From: a virus
Reading direction: 5' to 3' (one strand)
IMG/VR virus record: IMGVR_UViG_3300047174_000201
Location: 1 to 29,828 of that record
DNA: 29,828 bases
Position numbers and translations under genes: made by a program. The notes beneath the pieces were generated by a model. It made no database searches, was not told the origin of the DNA, and saw only the letters and a program-made list of their open reading frames with translations. Shown piece after piece: positions 3,264-29,828 of this stretch; within the stretch, counting starts at the first letter, position 1; each line of letters begins with the position of its first letter.

Positions 3264-3689
3264 ATGCCTTTTGATAGCGAGGCGAACGCGAACGTTCGCG
3301 GTATGACCATCCTTTGCGAAATGGGTGATCTTGAGATATCGTGGGAACCGCATAACGATGAAAAAGTTCGGCTCATAATCGAAAAGAAAATGCGTGAAGG
3401 CGTTCGCTTTTTCATTCTGAAGCCGGTGATCGGTGACGTGCTCCATATGCGTAAAAAATTGAACAAAATTAGCGACCTTAAAGCGCACAACATCAAAATC
3501 AAAGACGAAGATATACAATCTTTGTTTTCTAGTGGTGATGCTGCGTTTTTTCGTAATCCTCAAGGTCAAGAGGATCAAATTGCCATAGCTTCTGTAAAAG
3601 GACCGGATGGTAAGCTGGATCACGTAGCTAGCAGTCAGCTTGCCGTCAAAAATCGTACGGTTGGTGTTCGACCGCTCGGTGGAGGCTAG
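3264..3689 (+). CDS. Hypothetical late protein
   Basis: 141 aa, unrecognised. I prefer the ATG at 3264 over the in-frame ATG at 3249 because GGAG sits nine bases before it and overlaps the upstream candidate. The protein has an N-terminal beta-rich part, a basic helix (about residues 38-50), and a pattern KNRTVGVRPLGGG at the end. The stop codon is separated by one base from the TTG start of the next gene, and the terminal GGTGGAGG codons serve as its ribosome-binding site. The pair is therefore probably coupled and functions together, perhaps in the virion. Confidence 0.65.
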   Translation: MPFDSEANANVRGMTILCEMGDLEISWEPHNDEKVRLIIEKKMREGVRFFILKPVIGDVLHMRKKLNKISDLKAHNIKIKDEDIQSLFSSGDAAFFRNPQGQEDQIAIASVKGPDGKLDHVASSQLAVKNRTVGVRPLGGG

Positions 3690-3690
3690 T

Positions 3691-4983
3691 TTGCCAGCAC
3701 CAGATGTTCGGTATGTTTTAGATTCATCTTTTCAATTGGGACATATAGGTGGAGATACTTATTTCTACCTTATGGAAATTGCACAAGATGCAAATGAAAT
3801 AGTCGATAATCATCAGGAGTATGCCGCCAATTACGATTCTCATTGGCAAAGGCTCATTCATATGGGCTATTACTTTGAAGATCATTATGTTCGTTGGCGG
3901 GCAACCAACTCTGCCGATGCGAAATTAGCTTCATTTCAAGGTTTAACCAACCTTCCTGATATTATACTTGAAGTCGCGAATAGCTGTGCAGGTAAACTCA
4001 TTGAGGATGGACATCATTCTCTGAATTCAAAAGCTTTGGATATTCTCAATAAAACTTTTGAGTTCGAAGGCACCAAGCAAATTATGCGTCGCACCTTACG
4101 TCGGGCTCAACATGATTTCAACGGTTGGACAGCTAAAGAAATTTCTGATCTCAGACTTGTAGTTGATGGCCGCCGAGCAGAAAATCGCCGCGCTTATGAT
4201 GCAGCCATTGCTCGCATGTATGAAAATATGGACGCTCAAATTAATGATACCATCACCGCGACCGTTGTGAGCACTCTGGGCGCGTCTGGTTCAACGAATG
4301 AAAGAAGCATAAAAAATACGCAAAAGCTATTAAATGAGCGCGTAAAACAACAACGGCGAGCCATAAAGCGAAGTGTAAAGTTCCTGACAAAACTTGTTGG
4401 ACACGATACCACTCGGATGTTTATATCTGGTGATCGTGTTCGATTTGAGGGACAACACGCGGTCTATGAACTTCAAAAAGTCAGTAATCTTAGTAACCCT
4501 CATGGTGGGTATAGGGCACTCTCTGTGTTTGATAAAGAGCATCCTGAGCTGATGCTTTGTAACATTTGCATATACACACCTGATGTTCCTCTGTTAGATC
4601 ATGTTGCCAGTCTGGTGATGCATATTCGTGCTGGTGAAGAAGATGAAATTTTAAAGATTGGGAATGCAAGTAATATTCATGACAAGGCTTACGAACTTCC
4701 ATGGCTGGCGCCCCACTTACCTGTAAAAGATTTAGAGCTGCGTCAAATTTCCTTGAACAATATTATTTCTTCGTTTACTAATATGTCTCCAAGCCAACTT
4801 GAACATTATGATAATAAAAAAGCGAGATTAGCTAATATAATCAAACGAAACATCTATGAAGAAGTTTTAGAACCTTATGCTGATATATTTCGGGCAGCTA
4901 ACTCAAATCGTCTTTCCGAAATAATTTGGCAACATACGATCTTGGCAAGCACAATTACAGCAAGCGCGATTTCTACAAATTAG
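3691..4983 (+). CDS. Large helical probable virion protein
   Basis: 430 aa from a TTG start; GGAGG five bases upstream decides this start over an earlier in-frame TTG at 3640, which would overlap the previous gene. The sequence is largely helical, with a very basic segment around residues 200-235 (KNTQKLLNERVKQQRRAIKR) that could bind nucleic acid or form a coiled coil. No catalytic motif is visible. Size, position in the late block and coupling with the 141-aa gene suggest a structural or internal virion protein of this phage group. About 120 bases follow before the next gene; they contain no clear terminator and end with the late promoter at 5071. Confidence 0.6.
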   Translation: MPAPDVRYVLDSSFQLGHIGGDTYFYLMEIAQDANEIVDNHQEYAANYDSHWQRLIHMGYYFEDHYVRWRATNSADAKLASFQGLTNLPDIILEVANSCAGKLIEDGHHSLNSKALDILNKTFEFEGTKQIMRRTLRRAQHDFNGWTAKEISDLRLVVDGRRAENRRAYDAAIARMYENMDAQINDTITATVVSTLGASGSTNERSIKNTQKLLNERVKQQRRAIKRSVKFLTKLVGHDTTRMFISGDRVRFEGQHAVYELQKVSNLSNPHGGYRALSVFDKEHPELMLCNICIYTPDVPLLDHVASLVMHIRAGEEDEILKIGNASNIHDKAYELPWLAPHLPVKDLELRQISLNNIISSFTNMSPSQLEHYDNKKARLANIIKRNIYEEVLEPYADIFRAANSNRLSEIIWQHTILASTITASAISTN

Positions 4984-6440: not shown

Positions 6441-6484
6441 CTATGTAGAGTATCCATCTCGGCTTGCCGAGATACAAAGAAAAC

Positions 6485-9064
6485 ATGGCTAAAGACAATT
6501 CTAATCTCAAAATTAAACCACCATATTCGAAGACAGTATTCAAAAATGAAGACGAAGTTGCCGATCTTCTACAGTGTATAGACGATCCACTTTTCTTCAT
6601 GAAACGCTTCATGAAGATTCAGCACCCGATGAAAGGTGCTCTTCCGTTTGAACCTTACCCATTCCAGCTTCGAATAATTAAGGCGTTTCACGAGAATAGG
6701 TTCTCCATTGCTCTAACCGCGAGACAGCTCGGTAAAGCTCTTGATTTAAAAACACCTATTCCTACACCTAATGGTTGGACAACTATGGGTGAAGTTAAGG
6801 TTGGTGATTATGTTTTGGATGAAAAGGGCAAGCCCGTCCGTGTGAATTTTGTTACTGATCCTATGTTTGGGCATAAAGTATATAATGTAGAATTCGATAC
6901 AGGCGAAATTATAAAAGCTGATGCTGAACATCTTTGGGTCGTTGGTGCATCACATTATCGAGGCAAAAAAAAGCAGCTTTCTACAGAAGAATTGATAAAA
7001 GAAATTACTTCAGCGGCAAATAGAAAAGGCAGTGTTTTTATTAATTCTACTCAGCCATTGCTTCTTGATGAAATAGATTTACCCATAAATCCGTATCTTT
7101 TAGGTGTATGGCTAGGTGATGGATATTCCGCCGGAGGGAGAATATGCGGTCACAGAGATGATATGGAGCAGATTTCTTTTAATCTGATTGCATGTGGTGA
7201 AACGTTATTTGAGACAAAATATGATTCTCGAAATAATGTTGCAATGCGAACCGTAGTGGGCCTCGTAAAAAAAATTAAGGCTTCCGGTCTAATTAATAAT
7301 AAGCACATACCTGTAGAATATTTAAGAGCGTCATATGATCAACGTTTAGCATTATTATCTGGTCTTATGGATACAGATGGATATTGCGATCCTAATGGTG
7401 GCTGTGAGTTCTATAATAAAAATACTAAACTAATTACTCAAGTTTCTGAACTTTTAGCAACTTTGGGTATAAAATCAAGAGACCATATTAAAATTATTAA
7501 TGGCGAACGGTATCATACGCTAAGATTTGCAACAACTATTCCTGTTTTCAGATTAGAACGAAAGTTACAACGACAAAAAGTAAGCACATTTGGACATCCA
7601 AAAATAACGCGACATTACATTAGGTCTATAACAGAAACAGAATCCGTTCCTGTAAAATGTATTCGTGTTGAAAATGACAGTCATTTGTTTTTATGTGGCA
7701 AATCTATGATTCCTACGCACAATACCACTTGTGCGGCTGGATATCTTTTATGGAAGGCGATGTTTACGGCCGACACTACTATTTTGGTAACAGCTAATAA
7801 ACTTTCCCAAGCATTGGAAATTATGGATAGAATTCGTTTTGCATACGAAAATATTCCAGATCATATTCGTGCTGGTATTACAGAATATAATAAAGGTACC
7901 GTTGCTTTTGATAATGGTTCCAAAATAGTTGCTCGTGCAACGTCAACTGACGCTGGTCGTGGTCTTTCAATCACATTACTGTATTGTGACGAATTTGCGT
8001 TCGTGCCTCCGAATAAGGCAAAAGATTTTTGGACTTCAATTCAGCCAGTTCTATCTACGGGTGGATCGTGTATTATTACCTCAACTCCAAAATCTGACGA
8101 AGATCAGTTCGCTCAGATTTGGCGCGCTGCAATAGATAATGTTGATCAATATGGTAATTTTAGAAAAGACCATTTGGGTAAAAATGGTTTTTACGCTGTA
8201 AAAGTTCCTTGGAGCGAACATCCCGAACGCGATGAAGCTTGGGCAGCACCCTTTCGTGAGAGCTTAGGCGAAGCTCGTTTCCGTCAAGAATTTGAATGTG
8301 ATTTCGTCACCGACGATGAAACACTTATCAATCCTCTTACCCTTAGTCAAATGAAGGGAATAAATCCAGATTTCTACACAGGTAATGTGCGTTGGTATAT
8401 GGACCCGATCCCAAATAAAACTTACCTTGTAAGTCTTGATCCATCTCTTGGAACGGGTAGAGATTATGCTGCAATTCAAGTCTTTCAATTGCCCGAAATG
8501 ATTCAGGTAGCTGAATGGCAGCATAATAATACAGCACCTCGCGGGCAAGTAAGTCAGTTGATGAAAATCCTGATGTTTATCGAGCAAACAATGCGCGACG
8601 ATCCTCGTCAGATGGGTGAACCAGAAATATTTTGGACTGTTGAAAACAACACTATCGGTGAAGCTATTTTACAAATTATTGAAGATACCGGTGAAGAACG
8701 TTTCCCCGGAATTTTCGTTTCTGAAAAAAAGAGAAAAGGTCAAACGCGCCGTTTCCGTAAGGGTCTTAACACGGATAATAAAAAGAAGTTATCCGCTTGT
8801 GCTCGCGCAAAGAGTTTGATCGAGTCTGGACGGATGCTCATCAACAGTGATCAGTTGATCAAAGAACTTAAAATGTTTGTCGCGGTCGAAACAACCTTCA
8901 AGGCTAAACCCGGTGCTCACGACGATCTGGTTATGGCAATGCTGCTTGCTGTAAGAATGCTTGATACCGTTCTATTATGGTCCAATTCGGTCGGGGACCT
9001 GAAAGAACATATTGATGATGATGAATTATATGAAGAAATAGAAGGAATGCCGGTAGTAATTTAA
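6485..9064 (+). CDS. Terminase large subunit (gp17-like) containing an intein
   Basis: The 859-aa precursor becomes a 530-aa protein after splicing; T4 gp17 has 610 residues. This ATPase-nuclease packages phage DNA into the prohead. The Walker A motif is reconstituted only after intein removal: TARQLGK joined to TTCAAG, matching T4 SRQLGKTT. Walker B is LLYCDEF (D502, E503). The nuclease domain shows SLDPSLGTGRDY (D652) and HDDLVMAM (D813, D814), like the T4 acidic triad. The long N-terminal region of T4 gp17 is shortened. An in-frame TTG at 6464 would add seven residues and better fits the usual late-promoter spacing; neither start has a strong ribosome site. Inactive until spliced, the motor depends on correct splicing. 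Confidence 0.95.
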   Translation: MAKDNSNLKIKPPYSKTVFKNEDEVADLLQCIDDPLFFMKRFMKIQHPMKGALPFEPYPFQLRIIKAFHENRFSIALTARQLGKALDLKTPIPTPNGWTTMGEVKVGDYVLDEKGKPVRVNFVTDPMFGHKVYNVEFDTGEIIKADAEHLWVVGASHYRGKKKQLSTEELIKEITSAANRKGSVFINSTQPLLLDEIDLPINPYLLGVWLGDGYSAGGRICGHRDDMEQISFNLIACGETLFETKYDSRNNVAMRTVVGLVKKIKASGLINNKHIPVEYLRASYDQRLALLSGLMDTDGYCDPNGGCEFYNKNTKLITQVSELLATLGIKSRDHIKIINGERYHTLRFATTIPVFRLERKLQRQKVSTFGHPKITRHYIRSITETESVPVKCIRVENDSHLFLCGKSMIPTHNTTCAAGYLLWKAMFTADTTILVTANKLSQALEIMDRIRFAYENIPDHIRAGITEYNKGTVAFDNGSKIVARATSTDAGRGLSITLLYCDEFAFVPPNKAKDFWTSIQPVLSTGGSCIITSTPKSDEDQFAQIWRAAIDNVDQYGNFRKDHLGKNGFYAVKVPWSEHPERDEAWAAPFRESLGEARFRQEFECDFVTDDETLINPLTLSQMKGINPDFYTGNVRWYMDPIPNKTYLVSLDPSLGTGRDYAAIQVFQLPEMIQVAEWQHNNTAPRGQVSQLMKILMFIEQTMRDDPRQMGEPEIFWTVENNTIGEAILQIIEDTGEERFPGIFVSEKKRKGQTRRFRKGLNTDNKKKLSACARAKSLIESGRMLINSDQLIKELKMFVAVETTFKAKPGAHDDLVMAMLLAVRMLDTVLLWSNSVGDLKEHIDDDELYEEIEGMPVVI
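6737..7723 (+). mobile_element. Intein with LAGLIDADG homing endonuclease inside the terminase Walker A
   Basis: 329 aa, residues 85-413 of the precursor. The N-terminal block starts with Ala instead of Cys/Ser (ALDLKTPIPTPNGW, then GEVKVGDYVLDEKGKPV). Block B has AEHLW with the conserved His, and the C-terminal end is SMIPTHN followed by Thr as +1 residue. Ala1 inteins are known to splice by direct attack of the +1 nucleophile. Two LAGLIDADG motifs are visible: LLGVWLGDG (205-213) and LLSGLMDTDG (290-299), so the homing endonuclease looks intact. The insertion lies between Lys and Thr of the P-loop, where non-splicing is lethal for the protein. The DNA is visibly more AT-rich than the flanking exteins, consistent with separate origin. 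Confidence 0.93.
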
Positions 9065-22487: not shown

Positions 22488-22991
22488 TTAAACTCCACCA
22501 GCGGGCATACCATCAACTGGTAGTGTTTCTGGTGTAACCACAGCCATTCTAACTGGCTTTGCAGAAGCACGAAGCATCCAACGATGCTTCTGATGCTTTT
22601 CAATTCGTCCTGCGAGGAAATTAACAATTCCCTGCTGATCGCAATCTTCTGCCATGTGCAGTGTTTCGTTCAACATATCAATCATAATTTCATTTGCTGT
22701 CATAAGTTGAAGCATCATTTCTCTGACACCAATTGGTGCGGGTTCCGCACCCGGAATTCTACTAAGTTCGATGAAACGATTCATACTCATGGGAGTATAC
22801 GCATCTAGCTGACGCAAATGTTCTGCTATGTCATCCAAGGATTCCCAAATGTCATTATATTGGTCTTCCAACATTTTATGAATCTCGTAAAATGTTGGAC
22901 CCTCAACGTTCCAATGGCAGCAGTGCGTTGTAACATACAATGCAAATGCTGTTCCGAGCGTCTGACGCATACCTTCAATCAAATTTTCCAT
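22488..22991 (-). CDS. Dps-like ferritin-family protein
   Basis: 167 aa, close to the Dps norm. Dps forms 12-mers that store iron and protect DNA from oxidation. The family signature is present: HWNVEGPTFYEIHKMLEDQY followed by NDIWESLDDIAEHLR. The ferroxidase His (HWN, IH), Asp and Glu (DDIAE) are therefore all visible. The C-terminus has a basic segment (RIEKHQKHRWMLRASAKP) that could bind DNA. It is reverse-oriented and has a late-type motif five bases before its ATG, so it would be made late, when DNA is packaged. Dps genes occur in some phages, but their role there is unclear. Confidence 0.88.
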   Translation of the reverse strand: MENLIEGMRQTLGTAFALYVTTHCCHWNVEGPTFYEIHKMLEDQYNDIWESLDDIAEHLRQLDAYTPMSMNRFIELSRIPGAEPAPIGVREMMLQLMTANEIMIDMLNETLHMAEDCDQQGIVNFLAGRIEKHQKHRWMLRASAKPVRMAVVTPETLPVDGMPAGGV

Positions 22992-25018: not shown

Positions 25019-25441
25019 ATGACCAAGCCTAACGATCCATGGACAACCGAAACCGGATCACGCATCAAAGCATGGTTTGTGATGCGGCTTGATTTACCCA
25101 TGTCCCAAGGCAAATTTGGTGTTCAAATTGGGCATGGTACCGATATGATTCACATTCTTGGCGGGACGAACCCTTATTATTCGCTCTGGCTAGACGAAAA
25201 TATCGGCAATAGGCGTAAGATCGTTCTACGGGCAAAAAGTCTGGAAGAGCTTGATGTAATCCGGATCGCCTGTGAAGAAGTCGGAATGCTGGTAAGCACA
25301 ATCGCTGATGCTGGTTTAACCGAATTTGATGGGCCAACTATCACGGGTATTGTGATACTACCCCATGATGATGCTCTCATACCAAAAGTTTTAAAGAGAA
25401 CTCAATCGTGGCGCAAAACTGATATGACGTTGCCAACATGA
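25019..25441 (+). CDS. Peptidyl-tRNA hydrolase, PTH2 family
   Basis: 140 aa. The pattern of PTH2 runs over the whole length: KAWFVMRLDLPMSQGKFGVQ followed by IGHGTDM (family: VxRxDLxMSxGKxAAQxxHA), then RKIVLRAKSLEELDVI, EVGMLVSTIADAGLTEF, then GPTITGIVILP. The enzyme releases tRNAs from peptidyl-tRNAs that drop off ribosomes. PTH2 is typical of archaea and eukaryotes; bacteria mostly use the unrelated Pth1, so a phage PTH2 is noteworthy. It may recycle tRNA during heavy late translation. Its stop overlaps the next tiny gene (ATGA). Confidence 0.85.
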   Translation: MTKPNDPWTTETGSRIKAWFVMRLDLPMSQGKFGVQIGHGTDMIHILGGTNPYYSLWLDENIGNRRKIVLRAKSLEELDVIRIACEEVGMLVSTIADAGLTEFDGPTITGIVILPHDDALIPKVLKRTQSWRKTDMTLPT

Positions 25442-27806: not shown

Positions 27807-28874
27807 ATGCGCGCTTATGAAATTCTAAACGAGAAAACTACCGAGAACATGGAAGTTCTGCGAGATTGTGTCGATCTTCTAATTAAGAACTTGCCTTACA
27901 AATTCAAGGCCAATATGAGCGATGGACTCCAAGGTGATCGATTGTCGGGACTGAATGAAATTATTAAGAAGTATGCAGGTACGCGTTATGAAGAACCTGT
28001 CAAGGCTCTCTATCAACAAGTCTTCGTGTTCAATAATAATATGCCGATCACGGGCACGTTGGGTGCCTATATTGGCAGACCGCATAATATATTTAAGTTC
28101 AACATATCTGGGCTGATGGGCGAATGTCGAGATTTTACACTTGAAGAACTTTTAGCGTTTAAAGGAAACAAAGCGATTAAAACATTTCGTGGCATTATTC
28201 TTCACGAAATTCGTCACATGTTTCAATCTGTCATGTATAAAAATTATTTCTATGGTGGCAGAGATGATGATTACAAGAAATCTCCAATTGAGATTGACGC
28301 AGCTTGGGTTCATCATCTGGAAGACTATAACATCGATGATTTTACAACAGCCGAATCCTATGCCAATGTCGTTATGTCTTCCTTTGCTGGCTACAAGAAC
28401 CTGACACCAAAGGAACAAGAGCACTTCCGTCGTAAGACAATTCGTTATTACCAAGATCATACGACTGGTAATAAGTCTGCTGCTGGATCGAACGCTAAGG
28501 AGCGGCTTCTACTGGCACGTAGTGCTGCCATCAAGCTTGCAGTCAATGCGCTGGCAAAGGTAAGGAACGATTATGATCTGCGTAATGTGCCCGGTTACAA
28601 TAAAGAATCAAAGTTCTTCTTATTCCCTGATCGCGCCTTTCGTGGAGCCGCATCGATCCTCTCAAGCGATGCCCGAGTTACGGCTGTCAATGCACCGATT
28701 ATTTGTTTGGCTTTGGCTCTCACTATGCCGCCAGAGGATAAACCCTTGATCCAGAAGCTCTTAAAGAGCAAAGGCGTGACAGCTCAAGAAGCACTGTCGA
28801 ATGCCGATGAAGCGTTCGCGGACGGTTGGGATATCCCCGCAATCAAAAGTGAAATCAGCAAAGCCTTTGATTGA
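27807..28874 (+). CDS. Zincin-like metalloprotease candidate with capsid-targeting-like leader
   Basis: 355 aa. The leader MRAYEILNEKTTE fits the capsid-targeting pattern with a cut after L-N-E (residue 9). Residues 133-137 are HEIRH, a match to the zinc-metallopeptidase HExxH motif, within a hydrophobic strand-helix (GIILHEIRHMFQS). A possible third ligand, E162, lies in SPIEIDAAWVHH about 25 residues on, as in gluzincin-type enzymes. The rest is helical and basic, with a linker near residue 220 (TTGNKSAAGSNAKERLL). I infer a peptidase that is packaged and delivered with the DNA, or used in prohead maturation. Its codons are more GC-rich downstream of residue 200. A perfect late promoter abuts the start. 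Confidence 0.75.
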   Translation: MRAYEILNEKTTENMEVLRDCVDLLIKNLPYKFKANMSDGLQGDRLSGLNEIIKKYAGTRYEEPVKALYQQVFVFNNNMPITGTLGAYIGRPHNIFKFNISGLMGECRDFTLEELLAFKGNKAIKTFRGIILHEIRHMFQSVMYKNYFYGGRDDDYKKSPIEIDAAWVHHLEDYNIDDFTTAESYANVVMSSFAGYKNLTPKEQEHFRRKTIRYYQDHTTGNKSAAGSNAKERLLLARSAAIKLAVNALAKVRNDYDLRNVPGYNKESKFFLFPDRAFRGAASILSSDARVTAVNAPIICLALALTMPPEDKPLIQKLLKSKGVTAQEALSNADEAFADGWDIPAIKSEISKAFD

Positions 28875-28888
28875 ATTTTATAACTTGA

Positions 28889-28986
28889 GGTGACTGAGAT
28901 CGGACAGTTCAGTCCCATCGGTCTGAACCCAGAATCCTTGCTATATAAATCAAGCGATCTCAGAACGGCATTCTACGCCTGTCACC
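28889..28986 (-). ncRNA. 98-base multibranched RNA element
   Basis: The ends pair (GGTGAC with GTCACC at 28889-28894/28981-28986). Next inward TGAGATCG pairs with CGATCTCA (28895-28902/28955-28962), and a small GGC/GCC hairpin with a seven-base loop interrupts one side. Inside are GTTCAG/CTGAAC and CTTG/CAAG hairpins. It begins 14 bases after the metalloprotease stop codon, has no T-run, and lies beside a tRNA-like gene. The stems work on both strands; I assign the reverse strand because of the tRNA-like neighbour. It could be an independent small RNA or the 3' domain of the larger RNA to its right. Confidence 0.4.
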
Positions 28987-29023
28987 TGCCACCACCCAAA
29001 ACGGCATAGTAGCAAACTTGATA

Positions 29024-29094
29024 TGATCATGGTCGGATTCGAACCGACATCCAATGGTTTTTAGACCCTTGCTCGTCCGTTGAGCTTCATGACC
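29024..29094 (-). tRNA. tRNA-like cloverleaf, anticodon uncertain
   Basis: On the reverse strand the acceptor arms GGTCATG and CATGATC pair over seven bases with one wobble. The D-arm is GCTC-AACGGAC-GAGC, the T-arm GTCGG-TTCGAAT-CCGAC is perfect, and the discriminator is A; total length is 71 bases with no encoded CCA. The anticodon arm is poor: AGGGT/CCATT pairs badly in the standard frame, which would give a CTAAAAA loop with anticodon AAA. A six-base loop with mismatched longer stem fits as well. It may be a degenerate or modified tRNA, or a tRNA-like domain of a larger RNA. Confidence 0.6.
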
Positions 29095-29100
29095 TATGGG

Positions 29101-29828
29101 TAGTTCGCTACACTACTAAAACCCGAAGGTAGTAATTCTGCTAAACCCAGTTATAGACTGGTTGCGCGCTTAATCCATAATCCTATATATGCTCATTCGA
29201 GCAAATTCGAAACAATGCTGCGACCGCTCTTTGCGATCCACTCCATCGCGGCCTATTCGGGCAGAAGCACGATGAAATCTGACGGGGGTCGAACCCGTGC
29301 ATACATTGCCCTTTCGCTTGGTTCGGTCGCGACAACTCCCCAAGCTACAACAGTGTGCCCATTCGGGCGAATTCGTAATGGAGCAGAGAACTCTCTAGAA
29401 AAGCCTCGTTCGTTGAACGCATTCGCATTCCAAACACAGGAATGCGACCATCCAACTAGCTCCACACTTTCATCTGAACAATCTGCAGATTGTCCAAGAC
29501 TACAACTTGCCAGCTTCTTGCGCTATGCGCCGTAGCGTCCGCTCGCGCGGAGTCAGGCTTGGGGACTTGCACCCCGCTGCATCTGGCCCCGAACTCTGCC
29601 GGGCGTTTCTCAATAATTTGGTCGGGCGGTGACCTCTAAAAAGAGGGCGCCGGATGCAGAACCGATATACTGCGAGGGGCGTTTGCAACCACCTTCCCGC
29701 CTACTTTCGTTCGTCTTCCTCACACGGATATCTCCCGTGCTGACCAAAACTTTAAAAGGTAACACTCTCTCTTACACGCGTCTCGCCACAGCGGCAACGC
29801 TGGTATTTGAGAACGGCACCCCAACTTG
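29101..29828 (-). ncRNA. Gene-free region with dense RNA structure, possible large ncRNA
   Basis: About 730 bases without a credible protein gene but with many stable hairpins. Examples: TCGCATTCC/GGAATGCGA (29423-29447) inside a domain closed by seven pairs at 29378-29384/29459-29465; GGGG-TGCAAGT-type hairpin at 29561-29575; CCGC-GCGA-GCGG (GNRA tetraloop on the reverse strand) at 29539-29550; ACC-TTCG-GGT (UUCG tetraloop on the reverse strand) at 29121-29130; CACGG/CCGTG at 29723-29739; a long-range helix 29577-29583/29653-29659; and three similar hairpins with ATTC/GAAT loops at 29191, 29251 and 29357. GC content is visibly higher than in the genes. One hairpin (29789-29802) favours the forward strand (GCAA loop). 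Phage-borne ornate RNAs such as GOLLD and ROOL lie near tRNAs and have this size; I cannot confirm the family. The region continues beyond the window. Confidence 0.5.

Follow-up and report, generated by a model that had tools for sequence, protein, structure and literature searches.

What does a viral contig encode at an end where no protein gene can be recognised? The DNA analysed here (the window) is a complete IMG/VR record of 29,828 bases, so that its right edge is the end of a contig, and positions 28,875-29,828 hold structured RNA on the minus strand up to that edge. A sequence-only reading of the last 728 nt had proposed a giant RNA resembling GOLLD or ROOL. We consider it probable, with moderate confidence, that the region is the 3′ end of an array of non-decoding, tRNA-derived RNAs, transcribed from the minus strand of a jumbo phage and probably processed like tRNAs.

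Genomic setting of the region

Proteins encoded in the window include a T4-type terminase with an intein, a UvsX recombinase, a gp32-like protein, a ferritin-like DNA-binding protein and a PTH2 peptidyl-tRNA hydrolase. The intein that splits the terminase large subunit (6464-9064) has a LAGLIDADG domain. The genes for the ferritin-like protein (22488-22991; PHROG: DNA binding) and the hydrolase (25019-25441) both lie less than 7 kb from the array. Contigs of 415, 561 and 578 kb are among the closest UvsX relatives of the window, which is therefore, as judged from its sequence, most likely a piece of a jumbo phage genome. In these three contigs (L002/L025, 415 kb; L026, 561 kb; L028, 578 kb), in which UvsX is 77-80% identical, the minus strand carries an RNA array 8-20 kb downstream of uvsX, matching the window, where the RNA region lies ~10 kb downstream of uvsX. 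Large ordinary tRNA clusters adjoin the array in two of the three. Comparison of the region with annotated phages by blastn gave no match. The neighbouring protein (27807-28874) was rejected as an anchor: searches of viral contigs and of the relatives' genomes found no counterpart, and one remote relative is found in Salicola phage SCTP-2.

What had been described from the letters of the last 728 nt was borne out in part. The absence of a real gene from more than 700 bases is consistent with open reading frames of at most 106 aa in 29,101-29,828, none of which matched a Pfam or PHROG family, and a protein-coding reading was dropped on these grounds. GC content is higher, at 0.48-0.55 as compared with about 0.37-0.46 across most of the preceding 5 kb, and the tRNA-like gene and the 98-base multibranched element described as adjoining are present as an RF00005 tRNA (29094-29024) and a 98-100-base element (28987-28888). 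Folding stability in excess of shuffled sequence is local on the reverse strand (z = -4.3 for the unit at 29470-29373); taken together, the 728 nt are not unusually stable on that strand, with z = -1.29 and 2/20 shuffles as stable or more. The plus strand gave z = -3.6. One of two other 200-nt stretches folded as controls also reached z -3.0, and z-scores on their own are therefore weak proof.

Units of the region

The features of the region are listed below in the order of the minus strand. R1 is a covariance model built from two sequences, a unit each from L026 and L028, that are described in a later section.

29480-29828, minus strand: W1, the 5′ part of the array, running to the contig end; no gene; contains the hairpin at 29699-29668 and a T-arm-like hairpin
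29668-29699, minus strand: internal hairpin GGTTGCAAACGC with a UGCA loop; matches R1 positions 98-129 (12.1 bits, E 3e-4)
29373-29470, minus strand: W2; z -4.29, 0/150 shuffles; R1 match at 29469-29354 (15.5 bits, E 2.9e-5)
29356-29372, minus strand: spacer hairpin ATTCGCCCGAATGGGCA; 17-mer present in 29 viral contigs; free-stem pairing test
29308-29349, minus strand: leader domain, TGTAGCTTGGGGAG to GAACCAAGCGAAAG, D-arm-like with a nested hairpin; homology to L025 12047-12008 (minus)
29207-29310, minus strand: W3; R1 match at 29313-29188 (18.4 bits, E 3.9e-6)
29251-29262, minus strand: imperfect third hairpin copy GCCCGAATAGGC, inside W3; one stem pair broken; read directly
29190-29206, minus strand: spacer hairpin ATTTGCTCGAATGAGCA, a compensated variant; degenerate-pattern search and free-stem pairing test
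29024-29094, minus strand: W4, a tRNA (RF00005, 47 bits) with good acceptor stem, D-arm and T-arm
28888-28987, minus strand: W5, the last unit; z -3.05, 0/150 shuffles; read directly

An acceptor stem, a D-arm and a T-arm are all present in W4. Its anticodon stem is defective, with 3/5 pairs and two mismatches (register AGGGT-CTAAAAA-CCATT), CCA is not encoded, and ARAGORN assigns no anticodon. A 5-pair anticodon stem with a 7-nt loop was found neither in W4 nor in the array members of the relatives. W2 and W3 have 7-bp acceptor-like stems. In W2, the stem (GTGGAGC, 29465-29459, with GCTCCAT, 29384-29378) is accompanied by UA at positions 8-9, two hairpin domains and a TACGA tail, without a 7-nt T-loop; in W3, the stem (GGCAATG, 29310-29304, with CATTGTT, 29217-29211) adjoins UA, and a T-arm (ACGGG-TTCGACC-CCCGT) occupies an unusual place at 29298-29282. 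The lack of a T-loop in W2 and the odd position of the T-arm in W3 mean that the window units could be partly degenerate. W5 consists of a 7-bp closing stem (AGGTGAC, 28987-28981, with GTCACCT, 28894-28888) that encloses a hairpin and a forked arm, with no T-arm, and the T-arm-like hairpin of W1 is GGGG-TGCAAGT-CCCC (29575-29561). A T-arm scan of the whole window returned just two canonical T-arms, both within the region and on its minus strand; a generalised scan of the window for an acceptor stem plus T-arm found nothing.

R1, run unfiltered on the window, matched 29313-29188, 29469-29354 and 29699-29668, all on the minus strand, with low scores (12-18 bits) and rough E-values. The first two matches owe much to the hairpin and also cover the acceptor-like closing stem. 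In a control with the T4 tRNA region, ordinary tRNAs reached 7-17 bits, and nothing else exceeded 4.5. The hairpin type of GGTTGCAAACGC is also found in the giant D-domain of the L028 and L026 units, with a U-A to A-U compensation. In the leader domain (29349-29308), comparison with L025 12047-12008, from the nearest relative, showed that the stem is maintained through one double and three single-sided changes.

A spacer hairpin separates the units

The hairpin core that had drawn attention in the window, GCCC-GAAT-GGGC, separates units of 100-330 nt in the arrays of the relatives. Three similar GAAT-loop hairpins had been described, and all are present on the minus strand: ATTCGCCCGAATGGGCA and ATTTGCTCGAATGAGCA are good and GCCCGAATAGGC is imperfect. 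The stems of ATTCGCCCGAATGGGCA and ATTTGCTCGAATGAGCA are both paired, with one C-G pair of the first exchanged for T-A in the second, and these two copies are far above chance. The internal repeat architecture that these hairpins had suggested is supported, more probably as tandem units than as one giant RNA.

The hairpin, with consensus AUUYGCYC-GNAU-GRGCA, is placed after the 3′ (CCA) end. A degenerate pattern detected 2, 2, 3, 5 and 1 sites in the window, G001, G003, G004 and G005, respectively, all on the minus strand and all within the array except for one 1-mismatch match (G004:18458); the reversed pattern, used as a control, had 0 matches in the same five sequences. Pairing was assessed separately by fixing the outer bases (WTTYGC....GCA) and leaving the four inner stem bases free. 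Under these conditions 14/14 sites in five arrays could pair, 12 of them by Watson-Crick pairs throughout, with the combinations CC/GG, TC/GA, CG/CG and CT/AG. Outside the arrays, 1/13 sites paired.

In most of the 29 viral contigs with the exact 17-mer, it adjoins tRNAs or lies in non-coding DNA. Often it comes immediately behind a tRNA's CCA (L035, a variant in L038, L041), and it is commonly followed by ACGAGAT. Bacterial genomes yielded 30 exact matches, of which at least two clearly belong to prophages and duplicate loci known from the viral contigs (L078, L081); most of the remaining matches lie inside long ORFs, look like chance and were set aside. No hairpin was found within up to 10 kb on each side in more distant UvsX relatives (51-67% or less). 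Among cultured phages, the hairpin is located in unannotated gaps of Rhizobium phage RHph_N1_10 and of Brevundimonas phages, and in two Brevundimonas jumbo phages (L108 5001-5018, L109 5001-5018) the gap lies upstream of the major capsid gene. In L059, a skipping-rope RNA (3530-3639; RF02924, 62 bits) is encoded ~320 nt upstream of a spacer hairpin. A further pattern, GGTATAAATCC..CCATTTGC, was discarded, as beyond two known loci it gave chance matches within coding sequence only.

Array units of the relatives covary

L026 7068-6851 and L028 8946-8729 are homologous units of ~200 nt. They begin with a 7-nt acceptor strand and UAGCUC; at the other end, a T-arm (GGURUAAAUCC) is followed by the acceptor partner, CCA and the hairpin. 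Their D-domain is enormous. RNAalifold predicted 51 pairs for the two units, 16 of which are changed on both sides, including four in the acceptor stem. The paired changes that the sequence-only reading had proposed to look for are seen in the units of the relatives and in the hairpin. The units of the window have no close homologue across their full length.

A third unit, L026 6849-6706 (E 2.5e-15), is detected by R1, as are canonical tRNAs that are followed by a hairpin, such as the tRNA-Met of L038 (E 2.5e-5), with R1 positions 145-190 falling on the anticodon-arm and T-arm segments of ordinary tRNAs. That R1 finds real tRNAs is independent evidence for a tRNA ancestry of the units.

Rfam recognises four tRNAs inside arrays (W4, L025 11942, L028 8033 and L028 9001), and ARAGORN names an anticodon for 0/4; for the Rfam tRNAs in the ordinary clusters adjoining the arrays of L025-L027 it names 29/29. 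In L025 11998-11942, canonical D- and T-arms are joined by an 8-nt connector with no anticodon arm, and 6/7 acceptor pairs are formed. Where an anticodon loop would be expected, a GGAA loop is present in L028 8099-8033 and a 3-nt loop in L028 9060-9001.

Scans for promoters and terminators were positive in L026 and, weakly, in L025 only; the start of the array in the window would lie beyond the contig end. In L026, the array occupies ~1.3 kb of protein-free sequence from a promoter-like site (TTGACA-16-TAGAGT, 7892-7865) to a strong 12-bp UUCG terminator (6592-6565); a promoter-like site is also found at the corresponding position of L025, but it is weaker.

Hairpins with a palindromic UGGCCA loop were observed in tRNA-like units at L025 11860 and 11678 (minus), with a similar GTC-TGGCCA-GAC in the L028 and L006 arrays. 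At L025 11735-11615, such a hairpin replaces the anticodon loop. Dimerisation through kissing loops is possible, and suggestive in L025, in too few cases to carry weight. A repeated motif, CGGTGATGAACCGGTAAGTCC, also occurs in or near jumbo-phage tRNA arrays (L025 11739 and L026 7604, minus; L027 4063 and L030 1595, plus).

Phage tRNAs lacking an anticodon arm

A pattern that allows no more than 16 nt between the stem of a canonical D-arm and that of a canonical T-arm identified tRNAs with a short or missing anticodon arm in 97 viral contigs (including L191-L277; examples are L193 1566-1622, L227 5474-5529 and L288 1495-1551). Among 76 that were examined (connectors up to 15 nt), 44 have 7/7 acceptor pairs, as compared with 1.3 expected on shuffling partners. 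Their acceptor stems comprise 41 distinct sequences in which many positions show every standard pair type, and the connectors are mostly 8-11 nt long and end in GTC or GC, like a variable loop. The pattern was found in 0/398 Pseudomonadota genomes; the form of normal length was found in 21/21.

When 12 of these elements were tested, the Rfam tRNA model accepted 11 simply as tRNA and ARAGORN reported 0, so the class could easily have escaped notice. In the cultured Polaribacter phage Danklef_1 the element (43546-43603) is annotated as 'tRNA-OTHER, Undet_(NNN)', and a literature search, which was not exhaustive, found no paper describing such a class. No unit of the window fits the class as defined by a 7-bp acceptor stem, canonical D- and T-arms and a connector of ~8-12 nt, and one such element, L025 11998-11942 with its acceptor stem of 6/7, is present in the nearest relative's array. 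Some members are located just upstream of a possible ORF start.

Alternative readings

A decaying tRNA cluster could produce several of these features. The units would be relics of tRNA genes, still present as the cluster is young or recombining, and the hairpins would be the original tRNA spacers. The two mismatches in the anticodon stem of W4, the imperfect hairpin copy and displaced T-arm of W3, and tRNA-like ends that are still recognisable all agree with decay, and jumbo phages are known to have occasional tRNA pseudogenes, as in XacN1 (PMC5852040). Decay is expected to break stems at random, and the kept pairing therefore counts against it: unit stems of the relatives change on both sides in step (16/51 pairs), hairpin pairs are retained at 14/14 sites, and dozens of unrelated phages have tRNAs in which the anticodon arm is gone while the acceptor stem is intact and covaries. 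We regard decay as unlikely.

The proposed kinship with GOLLD or ROOL was not upheld. Neither family was matched by cmscan, whether the window was searched at gathering level or 28700-29828 at E up to 5; the tRNA alone passed Rfam thresholds, and permissive matches were at chance level. GOLLD, ROOL, tmRNA, riboswitches and other Rfam families were accordingly dropped as the identity of the region. The broader part of the proposal, a structured non-coding RNA with repeats beside phage tRNAs, stands, given the tRNA at 29094-29024 and the tRNA clusters that adjoin the arrays of the relatives. GOLLD and ROOL resemble the region in being large, structured phage or prophage RNAs by tRNA islands, and their function is unknown (PMC12286853); they differ in that the units here are short, tRNA-like and separated by hairpins.

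A single long, multi-domain RNA of that style, with the hairpins as internal connectors and perhaps assembling through palindromic loops (UGCA, UGGCCA), would suit a phage locus near tRNAs without a protein gene, a length of at least 0.95 kb here and ~1.3 kb from promoter to terminator in L026, and the restriction, within 138 kb, of UGGCCA-loop hairpins to the array of L025. GOLLD linkers can, moreover, contain tRNAs (PMC12286853). Such an RNA is nevertheless improbable. The large ornate families have no Rfam match in the window or in the relatives' arrays searched, the units are bounded at both ends by tRNA-like acceptor stems with CCA, and in other phages this hairpin comes after lone tRNAs of the ordinary kind, all of which suggests that the genes are separate. 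Tandem tRNA-like units are favoured by the repeats, by the CCA-like ends and by comparison with the relatives.

tmRNA, including its permuted alphaproteobacterial form, is similar in that tRNA-like ends flank a large non-tRNA insert and no anticodon is present. It differs from the arrays in that the units here retain a D-stem, no tag frame was identified, and Rfam matched no tmRNA in the window, L025, L026 or L028. A tag-peptide reading of GCAAACGC was abandoned, as its frames do not terminate as tags do. A permuted tmRNA (RF04321, 111 bits) is encoded at 4564-4868 (minus) of L035, an 81-kb phage contig, near a tRNA-Asn and a spacer hairpin.

It is very improbable that the folds and hairpins are cis-acting signals for processing or stability of a polycistronic transcript, functionless once excised: for 26/45 anticodon-arm-less tRNAs of other phages, a candidate ORF begins no more than 60 nt downstream, by a loose criterion (first start codon, at least 40 aa), and the hairpin is located in the 5′ leader of a Brevundimonas phage capsid gene, but jumbo-phage arrays have no protein gene to regulate and the L026 array ends in its own terminator.

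Possible roles and relation to T4

Under the favoured reading, a jumbo-phage array of non-decoding RNAs, the units of the window would be of the same nature as those of the relatives. The array would be a string of structured units, several of them derived from tRNAs, with a 7-nt acceptor-type stem, UA at positions 8-9 and a D-arm, a T-arm or both. These would not serve in decoding, the D-arm being expanded to a large domain or the anticodon arm being broken, replaced or absent. Once transcribed, the precursor might be cut as tRNA precursors are, by RNase P at the acceptor stem and by a 3′ endonuclease near the hairpin. Its products would then be stable tRNA mimics, accumulating during infection and acting in trans by engaging tRNA-binding host factors without decoding. 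Most likely, they would serve to bait host defences that target tRNAs, as decoys, or to draw away tRNA enzymes. Defences that cut tRNAs are common and phage tRNAs counter them, which is why we raise the decoy idea; taken on its own, we hold it to be doubtful.

Clusters of phage tRNAs are usually explained by codon supply or by replacement of tRNAs that host defences have cut. Ordinary clusters share the locus and strand of the arrays, and the hairpin may follow the CCA of an ordinary tRNA (L035, L038). They differ in that the array members here have no usable anticodon or have giant D-domains. Conserved tRNA-shaped RNAs that are unable to decode would demand an explanation other than supply or replacement.

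The closest known RNAs are species 1 and 2 of T4 (rnaC, rnaD), structured RNAs of ~120-140 nt encoded at the 3′ end of a myovirus tRNA operon on the same strand. Species 1 ends in a T-arm (CCGGG-TTCGAAT-CCCGG) and an acceptor-like stem. T4 differs in having two such RNAs, in contrast to the many-unit arrays here, and no spacer hairpin of this type; R1 found the tRNAs of T4, and rnaC and rnaD did not rise above background. To our knowledge, the function of species 1 and 2 is unknown, a question now fifty years old, and non-decoding tRNA-shaped RNAs would offer a direct handle on it.

More tentatively, and with somewhat less than even confidence, we suggest that conserved tRNAs without an anticodon arm are widespread in phages and that some jumbo phages carry dedicated arrays of trans-acting, non-decoding tRNA mimics, a few of these with giant D-domains, punctuated by a processing hairpin, the array of the window included. 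A clear example is present in at least one cultured phage, so that experiments are already feasible.

Apparently circularly permuted tRNA-like elements were also observed, from position 1504 onward in both L289 (Enterococcus phage vB_OCPT_Ben) and L290 (Xanthomonas phage 10KY502B) and from 2275 onward in L229. Their order is T-arm, acceptor strand, short loop, other acceptor strand and D-arm, with the ends on the anticodon side, and they are unannotated in the two GenBank phages, vB_OCPT_Ben and 10KY502B.
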